From Caldithrix sp. (lineage in GTDB: Bacteria > KSB1 > UBA2214 > DYKH01): a DNA stretch of 5,208 nt. The notes beneath the pieces are model-generated. The model worked only from the letters and a program-made list of their open reading frames with translations. It was not told the origin of the DNA and searched no databases. The position numbers and the translations under genes were made by a program. Every line of letters begins with the position of its first letter. Positions within the stretch are counted from its first letter, which is position 1. Positions 1-5,208 of this stretch are shown piece after piece. The stretch lies in assembly GCA_020722685.1 (NCBI GenBank), contig DYKH01000040.1, positions 35,707-40,914 of the forward strand, written 5' to 3'.

Positions 1-20
1 TCCTAATCGTAATCCTACTC
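1..20 (-). repeat. Left hexamer array (inverted copy of the right array)
   Basis: Three consecutive 6-base units of the form NTAATC are visible at 3-8, 9-14 and 15-20; the third has one change. Bases 1-2 (TC) fit the end of a further unit, so the array probably continues outside the window. Reverse-complemented, 1-20 matches 430-449 at 18 of 20 positions, so it is the inverted partner of the array after the small gene. Read in the frame of that gene, it gives TAA stops at 4-6 and 10-12, which limits how far upstream the gene could start. Confidence 0.75.
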
Positions 21-30
21 GAAGGCGCCC

Positions 31-429
31 ATGCAACCATACTTCGATCACGAGAAATTGCGTGTCTACCAAGAAGCGATACGGTTCCTATCTCTGGTTG
101 AGGAAATCTCGAAAAAGACCGACAAAAAACTGCCTGTTCTCGATCATCTCGACAGGGCCTCAACATCCATTGCTCTCAACATCGCAGAAGGCAACGGCAA
201 GTTCACTGCTTCTGACCGCTGCAAATTTTTCGATATTGCAAGAGGGTCTGCTCTGGAAGCAGCAAGCGCTTTGGATGTGCTCGTGGCAAAAAAAATACTT
301 GCACCCGGAGAAGTTAAGGCAGGGAAGGAAATCCTCCACGGAATTGTGTCGATGATTGTTGGGTTGATCAAAAGCAACTCGGGCAGAGTTTACGACGGAC
401 GTGATGAGTATGGTGCGAAAGACGATTAG
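31..429 (+). CDS. Four-helix-bundle protein, S23/23S rRNA intervening-sequence family
   Basis: This 132-residue protein matches the small four-helix-bundle family (S23 / 23S rRNA intervening-sequence protein). It has the N-terminal block with HEKLRVYQEA (residues 7-16), RASTSIALNIAEGNG (42-56) and ARGSALE (70-76), followed by two further predicted helices to about residue 115. The length is typical. The molecular role of the family is not settled: members sit in 23S rRNA insertions, and the related Avd protein binds RNA in diversity-generating retroelements, so nucleic acid binding is a reasonable guess only. The ATG at 31 is preceded by AAGG (22-25) at 5 bases, and in-frame TAA codons at 4-6 and 10-12 rule out a much longer start. 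The tail after residue 116 is polar and acidic and ends Asp-Asp, where the coding sequence runs into the hexamer array whose first unit supplies the TAG stop. No signal peptide or membrane segment is seen. Confidence 0.85.
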   Translation: MQPYFDHEKLRVYQEAIRFLSLVEEISKKTDKKLPVLDHLDRASTSIALNIAEGNGKFTASDRCKFFDIARGSALEAASALDVLVAKKILAPGEVKAGKEILHGIVSMIVGLIKSNSGRVYDGRDEYGAKDD

Positions 430-459
430 GATTAGGATTACGATTAAGATTACGGTTAA
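424..459 (+). repeat. Right hexamer array, six GATTAN units
   Basis: Six uninterrupted 6-base units with consensus GATTAN run from 424 to 459; only the last departs from the core, reading GGTTAA. The units are in frame with the upstream gene, and the first supplies its TAG stop (427-429). Further in-frame stops follow at 433, 445 and 457. Bases 430-449 match the reverse complement of 1-20 at 18 of 20 positions. The array ends 4 bases before the ribosome binding site of lpdA, so it occupies the place where an lpdA promoter or leader would be expected. Confidence 0.85.
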
Positions 460-1940: not shown

Positions 1941-4556
1941 ATGGCCAAGTCTCTCGTCATCGTCGAGTCTCCAGCCAAAGCCAAAACCATTAACAAATAC
2001 TTGGGCAGCGACTACATCGTTTCCTCCAGCATGGGGCACATCCGCGACCTGCCCACATCGGGATCGACCAAGTCAAAGTCAGCGAGCAAGAAAGAGTCCA
2101 CATCAACTACAAAGGGGAAAAGGGGCGACACCAAGCTTGGTGAATATGAAAAGCTGGTTCGCAGTATGGCCATCGATCCTGAAAATGGCTGGAAAGCGAG
2201 GTATGAGATTTTGCCGGGAAAGATGAAGGTCCTGATGGAGCTCAAAGCTCTTGCTGCCAAGGCCGATTCCATCTACTTGGCCACCGACCTCGATCGCGAG
2301 GGCGAGGCCATTGCTTGGCATTTGCGAGAATCCATTGGCGGCGAGGAGCGGCGCTACAAACGGGTCATTTTCAGCGAAATCACCAAGCAAGCCATTCAGC
2401 AGGCCTTTGCTTCGCCGGGGCAATTGAACATGGATCGGGTCAACGCCCAGCAAACCCGGAGATTTCTCGACCGCGTCGTGGGATACATGCTTTCCCCTTT
2501 GTTGTGGAAAAAGGTCGCGCGCGGGCTTTCTGCGGGACGAGTGCAATCCGTGGCCGTTCGGCTTATTGTCGAAAGAGAACGTGAAATTCGCGCCTTTGTA
2601 CCGGAGGAATACTGGAAAATATTTGCCCTCCTCAAAGCCAAACCGCCTTTCCGGGCGCAGGTCAGCAAGTACAAAGGCAAGACTTTTTTGCCTAAGAACC
2701 AGCAAGAAGCAGATGCGGCCTTGGCGGAGCTGCAAAAATCCACTTATGTTGTAGCCGATTTCAAACAGACGCCTACCAAACAAAATCCATATCCTCCCTT
2801 TATCACCACGACGCTGCAGCAAGCCGCCAGCCTCCGTCTTGGCTTTAGCGTCAAAAAAACGATGATGCTGGCGCAGCATCTTTATGAAGCCGGTCTGATC
2901 ACCTATATGCGTACCGATTCCACGCAATTGAGTCATCAATCCGTGCAGGCGTGCCGGAGCTTTATCAAAGCCACGTTCGGTGACCGCTATTTGCCGGACA
3001 CCCCTCGCGTCTATGCCAGCAAGAAAGGTGCGCAGGAAGCCCACGAAGCCATCCGGCCCAGCTATGTGGAAAACACACCGGAACGCATGGATCGCTTGGA
3101 TCGAGATCATGCCCGGCTTTATGAACTGATCTGGCGGCAATTCGTCGCTTGCCAGATGCCGCCGGCAGAATTCGACAGCACCAGCATCGTCATCACCGCC
3201 GGGGACTATGAACTGAAGGCTACCGGTCGGGTCATGCGCTTTGACGGGTGGATGAAGGTCCTGCCCCCGGTAGCCAAGAAAGACGAGGAAGCTGCTGAGC
3301 TGCCGGAAGTGAAGGTCGGCGAAATCCTTCCGCTCATCAAGCTGGAACCCAGCCAGCATTTCACCAAGCCGCCGGCTCGTTACACCGAAGCCAGTCTCGT
3401 TCGTGAGTTGGAAAAGCTGGGCATCGGACGGCCTTCGACCTATGCGCCCATCATTTCCACCATTCAGGAGCGCGGCTACGTCCAGCTCATCAAGCGGCGG
3501 TTTTTTGCGCAAAAGATCGGCGACATCGTCACCGATCGCTTGGTGGAAAATTTTAACAACCTGATGGACTATGGCTTTACTGCTTCGATGGAAGAGGAGT
3601 TGGATCAAATCGCTATGGGCAAGCGACAATGGCGGGCTGCTTTGGACGAGTTTTATGCGGATTTCAAGAAGCAACTTGCCGCAGCAGACCAATCTATGCG
3701 GCGCAACGAGCCGGTGCGGATTCCCGCCATCTCCTGTCAAACTTGCGGCAAACCGATGATGGTTCGCACCGGCGGCACCGGCGTTTTCCTGAGTTGCTCC
3801 GGTTATGAGCTTCCGCCCAAGGAACGCTGCAAGCAGACCATCAATCTCATTCCCGGCGAGGAAACCCTCGCGGTAGTCAGCGATGAGGATGAGGGAGATG
3901 CAACGGAATTGCTGCACCGTCGTCGCTGTCCCATTTGCGGCACGGCCATGGACAGCTATTTGGTGGATGCGCAGCGCAAGCTACACATCTGCGGCAATAA
4001 CCCGGACTGCAAGGGCTATGAAGTCGAAGTCGGCAATTTTAAAATGAAAGGCTATGACGGTCCGGTCATTGTTTGCGACAAGTGCGGCGCGGACATGGTG
4101 CTGAAAAAGGGCCGCTTCGGCAAGTTCTTTGCCTGCACCAAGTACCCGGAGTGCAAGAATACCCGCAAGCTGCTGCGCAATGGTCAGCCGGCGCCGCCGA
4201 AAGCAGATGCCGTGCACATGCCGGAGTTGAAATGCGCCAAATCCGATGCCTACTTTGTCCTGCGCGACGGCGCCGTCGGGCTGTTTTTGGCGGCGCACAC
4301 TTTTCCAAAGTCGCGGGAAACCAAGGCGCCTTTGGTAGAAGACCTGATTCGGCATCGCGAGGAATTGGACCCAAAATTCGATTACTTGGTTCAAGCCCCG
4401 GTGACGGATCCGGACGGTAACAAGGCTGTCATCCGCTTCAAGCGGAAAGAACGCATTCAATACTTGATGACGGAATACGACGACAAGCCGACCGGTTGGG
4501 AGGCGTACTACCAGGATGGAAAGTGGGAATGGAAGAGGATGCGGACGAAAAAGTAA
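1941..4556 (+). CDS. topA: DNA topoisomerase I (type IA, omega protein)
   Basis: An 871-residue type IA topoisomerase that relaxes negative supercoils by cutting one strand through a 5'-phosphotyrosine link. The Toprim domain has Glu9 in [11 protein letters not shown] and the acidic triad Asp116, Asp118 and Glu120 in [13 protein letters not shown]. Between the two lies a Ser/Thr/Lys-rich insert (about 41-65), as in the E. coli enzyme. [13 protein letters not shown] (195-207) is conserved. The active-site tyrosine is Tyr322, followed by Arg324, in [16 protein letters not shown] (368-374) and [11 protein letters not shown] (494-504) follow. The C-terminal half carries three four-cysteine zinc ribbons: Cys599/602/619/630, Cys663/666/684/690 and Cys712/715/732/738. 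A cysteine-poor domain (about 760-871) with [13 protein letters not shown] and a Trp-rich end completes the E. coli-type layout, against 865 residues in E. coli. All catalytic and metal-binding residues are present, so the enzyme should be active. It probably shares a transcript with lpdA. No clear terminator follows. Confidence 0.96.
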
Positions 4557-4697: not shown

Positions 4698-4946
4698 GTG
4701 GAACAGATTGCGGAAAATGAAAATATTTGACGTCAGCTTGATGAACTTCCAGCCGAGGCGAGGCGCGAAGTACTCGATTTCATCTCTTTCTTGCGGACGC
4801 GCTATCAAAAAGCAAATCGCAAAAAATCCACCAAGATGTTAAGACTATCTGATGAGCCATTTGTAGGCATTTGGAAAGACCGCGAAGACTTGAAAGATAG
4901 CGTCAGTTGGGTTCGCGGCGTTCGAAAACGCGAATGGACGAGCTAA
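4698..4946 (+). pseudogene. VapB/DUF2281-like antitoxin, broken by an early stop codon
   Basis: Read from GTG at 4698, this frame gives ten residues (EQIAENENI after the start), a TGA at 4728-4730, then 71 uninterrupted codons to TAA at 4944. The part after the stop has the features of DUF2281/VapB-type antitoxins: LDELPAEARREVLDFISFL (residues 13-31), a basic linker, and the C-terminal block EPFVGIWKDRED followed by a SWVR and an EW near the end. In the family the N-terminal part is the DNA-binding and dimerising region and the C-terminal part neutralises a PIN-domain toxin. One base change at the TGA would restore an 82-codon gene of normal length. No other ATG, GTG or TTG follows until TTG at 4791 and ATG at 4836, so most of the protein should be lost unless the stop is read through. 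No VapC-like toxin follows. A sequencing error at 4728-4730 is the main alternative. Confidence 0.7.
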
Positions 4947-5162: not shown

Positions 5163-5182
5163 TTAGCCAACTGAATAATTGT

Positions 5183-5208
5183 GTCATTTCGAACGGAGTG
5201 AGAAATCT
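5183..5208 (+). repeat. REP-like dispersed repeat, cut by the window edge
   Basis: The last 26 bases follow a pattern I recognise from short dispersed repeats in many environmental bacterial genomes, of the kind GTCATTTCGAnCGnAGnGAG followed by AAATCT. ATTTC (5186-5190) and GAAAT (5202-5206) are complementary and could form a short stem. Only one copy is in this window, so repetition in the genome is not shown here and is inferred from general familiarity. The sequence runs to the window end. Confidence 0.5.

Follow-up and report, generated by a model that had tools for sequence, protein, structure and literature searches.

A four-helix-bundle protein gene between inverted hexamer arrays upstream of lpdA, a probable old member of a family of very small mobile cassettes

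The stretch of DNA analysed here, which we call the window, comprises 5,208 nucleotides of a contig assigned to a Caldithrix sp. (DYKH01000040.1, positions 35,707 to 40,914). It opens with a short gene that is enclosed by inverted arrays of a hexanucleotide and is followed by two longer genes, as listed below.

1..20, minus strand: left inverted array, with three NTRNTC units at 3-20
31..429, plus strand: four-helix-bundle (4HB) gene of the S23/23S rRNA-intervening-sequence protein family, FDHEKL/NIAEGNGK subfamily, 132 aa
424..453, plus strand: right array of five exact GANYAN hexamers, containing the 4HB stop codon
454..459, plus strand: degenerate sixth unit, GGTTAA
475..1902, plus strand: lpdA (dihydrolipoyl dehydrogenase; TIGR01350, 513 bits), a co-directional neighbour outside the cassette
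1941-4556: topA, downstream of lpdA
about 4698-4946: small frame, with a TGA in frame close to the start, presumably resembling a short antitoxin-type protein
5180-5208: final bases, which we take to resemble an intergenic repeat common in metagenome bins

The family assignment made in the initial annotation is upheld by profile searches, in which the encoded protein exceeds the cut-offs of both PF05635 (66.3 bits versus 33.8) and TIGR02436 (59.1 bits versus 24). A structural model of the protein resembles 2rld and 2gsc, as expected for a four-helix bundle, and matches S23 structures as well as Avd structures. By analogy with solved relatives, the protein is probably a pentamer.

Inspection of the letters alone had suggested three NTAATC units before the gene and six GATTAN units after it. 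Three upstream units are indeed present, two of them exact and one reading NTACTC (GAGTAG GATTAC GATTAG on the minus strand at 3-20), and downstream five units are exact while the sixth is degenerate. The claimed complementarity between positions 1-20 and 430-449 proved exact on a base-by-base check (18 of 20 bases), and the 4HB gene is, as had been noted, the sole occupant of the space between the arrays, with no transposase of its own. The TAG stop codon falls within the first downstream unit, an arrangement found at 25 of 76 loci including the window. Neither the inverted-repeat score of the two arms nor the run of five GANYAN units was reached by any of 2000 dinucleotide-preserving shuffles of positions 1-473. 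Exact GATTA occurs at only one site outside the arrays, at 4380, when both strands are counted; the total of eight was equalled in 71 of 200 shuffles, and thus it is the clustering rather than the count that is unusual. Given that the window starts at base 1, the left array may be cut at the edge.

The 4HB stop codon is separated from the lpdA start by 45 nt. A 4HB protein 73% identical and an LpdA 77% identical to those of the window each lie on a contig of 124,287 nt, which suggests, without proving, that the pair has been inherited together. Among 80 related loci, lpdA lies directly 3' of the 4HB gene in five (L005, L023, L039, L043 and L063) by crude ORF calls, and so the possibility considered at the outset that the same gene is fixed before lpdA in distant relatives is borne out in part. 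In a weakly resolved tree, the 4HB proteins of these loci and of the window fail to group as a single clade. A terminal repeat of the kind described below is absent to the right of the window copy, whose left end lies outside the view; we judge this copy to be old, fixed and probably immobile.

A search with the window protein gave at least 7996 relatives. On genome contigs 374 were confirmed, of which the best 80 were kept; their titles name Verrucomicrobiota, Ignavibacteriota, Bacteroidota, Planctomycetota, Kiritimatiellota, Lentisphaerota, Desulfobacterota, a deltaproteobacterium and SAR324, and some bin names look doubtful, including the label 'Akkermansia muciniphila' of the genome with the most copies (G004). 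Outward-pointing GANYAN arrays stand on both sides of the gene at 56 of the 75 loci with enough flank to be testable (the window dropped out because of its short left flank), versus 1 of 75 with a reversed-pattern control, and 12 of 75 loci have an inward-sense score on both sides; several loci share one genome, and the counts are therefore not independent. In tandem gene settings, as judged by crude ORF calls, 37 of 43 cassettes are co-oriented with the transcription of their neighbours.

The same arrays also occur without a gene. A four-unit GANYAN pattern was present in 20 of 23 whole genomes, with reversed-pattern counts of 0 to 3 per strand. Gene-less arrays often form hairpins, and the outward order was observed in 11 of 17 close pairs and in all but one of the gene-less array regions picked by pattern. 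For the hairpins of G014 and Ignavibacteria, the match between a hairpin's own arms is no closer than that with other arms from its genome (p=0.42), and terminal repeats and target duplications are not above background. The match between arms at a given locus thus partly reflects a genome-wide preference for one unit, and we rejected locus-specific arm pairing, which is strong between loci and absent within genomes.

The composition of the unit is well defined. Across 633 units from 119 arrays of at least three units, position 4 holds T (555) or C (78), position 3 mostly T (454) or G (115), and position 6 is free; the search pattern itself set positions 1, 2 and 5. Exactly five units make up 38 of 66 distinct gene-flanking arrays upstream and 22 of 63 downstream, and a GA continues the array in 33 of these 38 and 16 of these 22. 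The middle unit of the five-unit arrays departs most at position 3. Gene-less arrays have no peak at five (22 arrays of four units, 18 of five and seven of six). The difference between the two sets gives a Fisher p of 0.0014 upstream and 0.021 pooled under differing count rules, and it is weaker when one strict rule is applied to both (p=0.014 upstream, p=0.10 for both arms pooled).

Evidence for mobility comes from relatives of the window copy. One genome has four copies that share 98.7-99.6% identity over a stretch from about position -100 to the gene end, with the match stopping upstream (two of the four run into a contig edge). G004 holds six near-complete copies (91-100%) together with 24 copies that have lost internal sequence through one of two kinds of deletion and retain the same outer parts, fused to each other, and its end sequence occurs 130 times, versus 0 for the reversed control. 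Direct repeats of at least 7 bp adjoin the ends of 10 of 22 complete elements, nearly all of them from G004, versus 0.24 expected; the repeats measure 8-14 bp, four of them exactly 9 bp, and the other 12 elements have no clear target duplication. End repeats of 9 bases can also be read at L021, L024 and L072. The comparison of filled and empty sites that had been proposed could be made in relatives of L011, at an intergenic site that precedes a histidine-kinase gene. Among 21 readable loci of 28 fetched, five are filled, two carry a shortened gene, one a gene-less remnant, and 13 lack a cassette in the 230 nt that precede the histidine-kinase gene.

The initial annotation had pictured a self-contained unit that spreads with its hexamer ends. 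Its account of spread agrees with the inverted arrays found across phyla, the recent copies at differing places in relatives, the deleted derivatives and the target duplications of about 9 bp. In the recently mobile copies the hexamers themselves are not the ends, which are formed by outer terminal repeats that lie beyond them. The same observations bear on a non-mobile reading, in which the structure would be a regulatory terminator or a riboswitch-like device of the downstream gene. Co-directional neighbours and the adjacency to lpdA would suit such a device, whereas copies at differing places, target duplications and empty sites would not, and for the family as a whole this reading, which we consider very improbable, is largely refuted.

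Selection on the gene fits an element. Nine between-lineage pairs have dN/dS values of 0.05-0.13, three of them with dS above 1.5. Within genomes, three pairs have a dN/dS of 0.85 or non-synonymous changes only, values derived from as few as 1 and at most 11 differences in a pair, and a fourth pair, which lies inside a 4.3-kb duplication, gives 0.27.

Longer direct repeats were also observed across some cassettes, at 12 of 74 loci with a score of at least 14, versus 0.22% of cross pairs. In five of the ten loci read in detail, the repeats lie outside the arrays: 57 nt in L037, 45 nt in L058, 40 nt in L078, 31 nt in L022, where the repeat itself resembles a terminal repeat, and 25 nt in L044. 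At the remaining loci read they involve the arrays, tandem copies or an element with terminal repeats. The direct repeats of L058 and L078 appear to include the start of the next gene. An array element at L249 likewise lies between direct repeats, and together with the other five loci the range is 24-57 nt.

A plausible source of the transposase was found in a small number of genomes. In G079, a 1.9-kb element whose ends coincide with those of that genome's 4HB elements encodes a DUF6788 protein and a 436-aa transposase, which scores 176 bits against the ISKra4 profile NF033572 (below the cut-off of 205) and 27.5 bits against PF06782 (above the cut-off of 24.3). A 22-nt tip is present with at most one mismatch in all nine G079 element loci examined. 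In G003, a related insertion sequence (IS) is flanked on both sides by CATCAGGAA, a 9-bp duplication, and it has 22 nt (by script) at the left and 25 nt (by reading) at the right in common with the 4HB element of that genome. The IS is also present in G078, flanked by TGCAAAAGA, and the local 4HB element loci examined there lack the tip. A gene-less array element of G006 has similar ends and a 9-bp duplication. At L299, the G079 IS lies inside a near-perfect inverted duplication (7-254 and 2054-2298) that reaches about 180 bp beyond its ends on each side.

Given that the ends match a resident ISKra4-family IS in two genomes, the enzyme is probably supplied in trans, as the initial annotation had offered as one option, and on these sequence matches we regard trans-mobilisation as well supported for one lineage. 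An ISKra4 transposase query had matches in 7 of 28 host genomes and none in G004; matches along most of the query were limited to G079, G003 and G078 (100, 92 and 83%). An autonomous IS with the ends of the G004 elements was sought by reading 52 ends at 40 loci: 46 lead into the element or its derivatives, and the six that were flagged as low look by eye like truncated elements or gene-less hairpins.

Canonical members of the 4HB family carry other repeats. The initial annotation had asked whether related 4HB genes lack such arrays, and for GANYAN they do, with none at the 47 canonical genes of the same genomes that have an HMM score below 70 (one of which, in L073, is a doubtful 4HB gene). 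Two thirds of canonical genes nonetheless have inverted repeats of other units. A flanking inverted repeat with a score of at least 12 is present at 67 of 101 distinct canonical loci (a set that includes one truncated FDHEKL member, L396), versus 2.2% of cross pairs. By the same test the value is 2.0% for 606 other genes, for which ORF calls were crude, 3.6% for 166 small genes, and 63% for the 76 4HB genes of those same control loci.

The arm period in the 67 canonical loci is 7 or 14 in 35, 8 in ten and another value in five, with none detected in 17, and 57 of 93 periodic arms span 28-42 nt. Heptamer arrays mostly contain four or five units (20 and 27 of 70) and octamer arrays four (12 of 23). 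Examples of the units are AGAATTC (L105), AGTGGYC (L082), AAAGGCAC (L083, L114 and L391) and GAGACNNN (L091, L353 and L363). Relatives of canonical 4HB proteins are encoded on 32 plasmid records. Of the 17 records that were read, with L402 and L403 as near-duplicates of each other, 14 carry a flanking inverted repeat that scores at least 12, versus 7.8% of cross pairs. The units are CAGRAGT on plasmids of Nostoc C052, Trichormus, Scytonema and Aulosira, ACAGGTG on a plasmid of Anabaena sp. 90, AGGGAAC on one of Nostoc edaphicum, and TAGGGTG on one of Calothrix brevissima. At L406, L408 and L409, a 4HB cassette lies between cas genes (cas10/cmr3, cas6/cas4) and is co-directional with them.

Unit length and unit sequence follow the protein clade. 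The nearest protein relative has the same unit length at 87% of 53 clear-period loci, a value not reached in any of 2000 label shuffles (39 of the loci have period 7, and same-genome pairs are included). Protein and array similarity correlate on the same strand (rho 0.257) and are uncorrelated on the opposite one (rho -0.026), with 0 of 1000 Mantel permutations; this is based on 3159 pairs that share less than 80% protein identity and, as far as genome labels go, come from different genomes. The set used 14 chosen FDHEKL loci of the 80, and genome labels cover the canonical loci. For canonical loci alone rho is 0.155. Co-descent of the gene and its ends contributes to this correlation and would by itself also produce one. 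Despite that contribution, the fixed and free positions of GANYAN are constant across phyla.

We consider the most probable explanation, with a likelihood of roughly two in three, to be that the window copy belongs to a widespread group of very small non-autonomous mobile cassettes, of which it would be an old and probably immobile representative; these cassettes would be mobilised in trans and would include a putative array-binding 4HB protein and gene-less miniature derivatives. Each cassette would comprise one S23/IVP 4HB gene and, on either side of it, inverted arrays of a unit of 6 nt (GANYAN) or, in other clades, of 7 or 8 nt, and a transposase would act in trans on the outer terminal repeats. 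The 4HB protein, a ring of five bundles if it is built like its solved relatives, is a candidate binder of its own array, and we predict that it contacts about five consecutive units on one strand, with each subunit taking one unit, or else a total of about 32 nt. Such binding may aid or control the element, and it would explain how the gene can be under purifying selection between lineages and decay within a genome. The gene-less hairpins of the same unit may be miniature derivatives of the cassette.

A simpler proposal is that the 4HB gene and its arrays are plain passengers, cargo of ISKra4-type mobile insertion cassettes or MITEs, in which case the arrays would be products of slippage and the protein would serve the host or nothing. 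This would account for the ends held in common with resident ISs, for the 9-bp duplications and for the spread of copies that are gene-less or deleted. However, the same layout is present in the 21 of 28 genomes where the ISKra4 query found nothing and recurs with other units in other clades and phyla, the unit tracks the protein clade, and the gene is under purifying selection between lineages. We therefore regard the passenger proposal as unlikely.

Somewhat less probable still, in our estimation, is an RNA-level element like the intervening sequences (IVSs) of 23S rRNA, whose arms would pair in the transcript so that RNase III excises the stem and leaves the insertion harmless, and which would move through RNA and a reverse transcriptase acting in trans. 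In the IVS of Coxiella, as described in the portion of the report available to us, a terminal stem of 28 bp encloses an S23 ORF that is preceded by tandem heptamers (PMC4990558). The resemblance of the fold to DGR Avd, the co-orientation of cassettes with their neighbours and the direct repeats of 25-57 nt at five loci point in the same direction. Against these stand the terminal repeats and duplications of about 9 bp, which are marks of DNA transposons, and the lack of any Rfam rRNA match in the window and in the 19 of 80 loci scanned. Of 25 host genomes, many of which are draft bins and may be incomplete, only 15 yielded a reverse-transcriptase domain, and the RNA-mediated spread raised as an alternative in the initial annotation is thus unsupported; we set aside a reverse transcriptase in trans on this count. 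Other vehicles were also considered and rejected: viral contigs gave no confirmed relative, phages gave no match, and plasmids gave one weak record for the window's own protein.

The cassettes, in the mobile reading that we prefer, share features with several known systems. REP elements that are associated with RAYT transposases place palindromic repeats around one gene and have many gene-less copies; here too repeats flank one gene and gene-less copies are numerous, but the gene product is a 4HB protein. Like 23S rRNA IVSs, the window has one S23-family ORF between complementary terminal repeats; unlike them, the window copy precedes lpdA, and its relatives bear the signs of DNA transposition. 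The model of the window protein is predicted to be similar in fold to DGR Avd, whereas sequence identity is only 8-10% and 10 of 25 host genomes have no reverse-transcriptase match. As to genomic context, lpdA and topA lie downstream of the window gene, and the view begins at base 1. Mobile insertion cassettes (MICs; the term is used in the part of PMC4133298 that we consulted) and MITEs are comparable in movement, in that relatives of the window copy have terminal repeats matching a resident IS, target duplications, no transposase and deleted derivatives. They differ in that here one protein family is accompanied by its own sub-terminal repeat unit across phyla.

Short 7-nt arrays have also been described in cyanobacteria, Xanthomonas and Beggiatoaceae, those of Xanthomonas partly as inverted pairs, in the sections available to us of two reports (PMC4692102; PMC4679880), the main texts of which do not contain the words S23 or four helix. 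Our 417 loci contain no tandem pairs of GGGAATC or TAACTGA, the exact units of those reports, and thus a link to the published heptamer arrays is a prediction. A literature search that covered few subscription journals returned no paper tying S23/4HB genes to such arrays. In the excerpt we had of one report, S23 proteins are stated to have no known function (PMC4990558), and S1, Csp and CsrA-type proteins are named as candidate binders of 7-nt tandem arrays in the accessible part of another (PMC4679880).

The origin and the binding partner of the short 7-nt arrays of cyanobacteria and other bacteria are unsettled. The linkage of gene and array makes both the function of S23 proteins and the origin of heptamer arrays directly testable, by challenging each protein with its own unit. 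As a tentative generalization, which we put forward as a possibility rather than as the expected outcome, S23/IVP proteins may be ring-shaped, unit-specific readers of nucleic acid, each clade having its own code of 6-8 nt. Many unexplained heptamer and hexamer arrays might then be ends or footprints of their cassettes, rRNA IVSs might be members that landed in 23S rRNA, and some cassettes, besides borrowing IS transposases, might insert by a second route that leaves direct repeats of 25-57 nt. If it is true that these proteins bind their own units, a comparison of clades would reveal a natural protein-repeat code.
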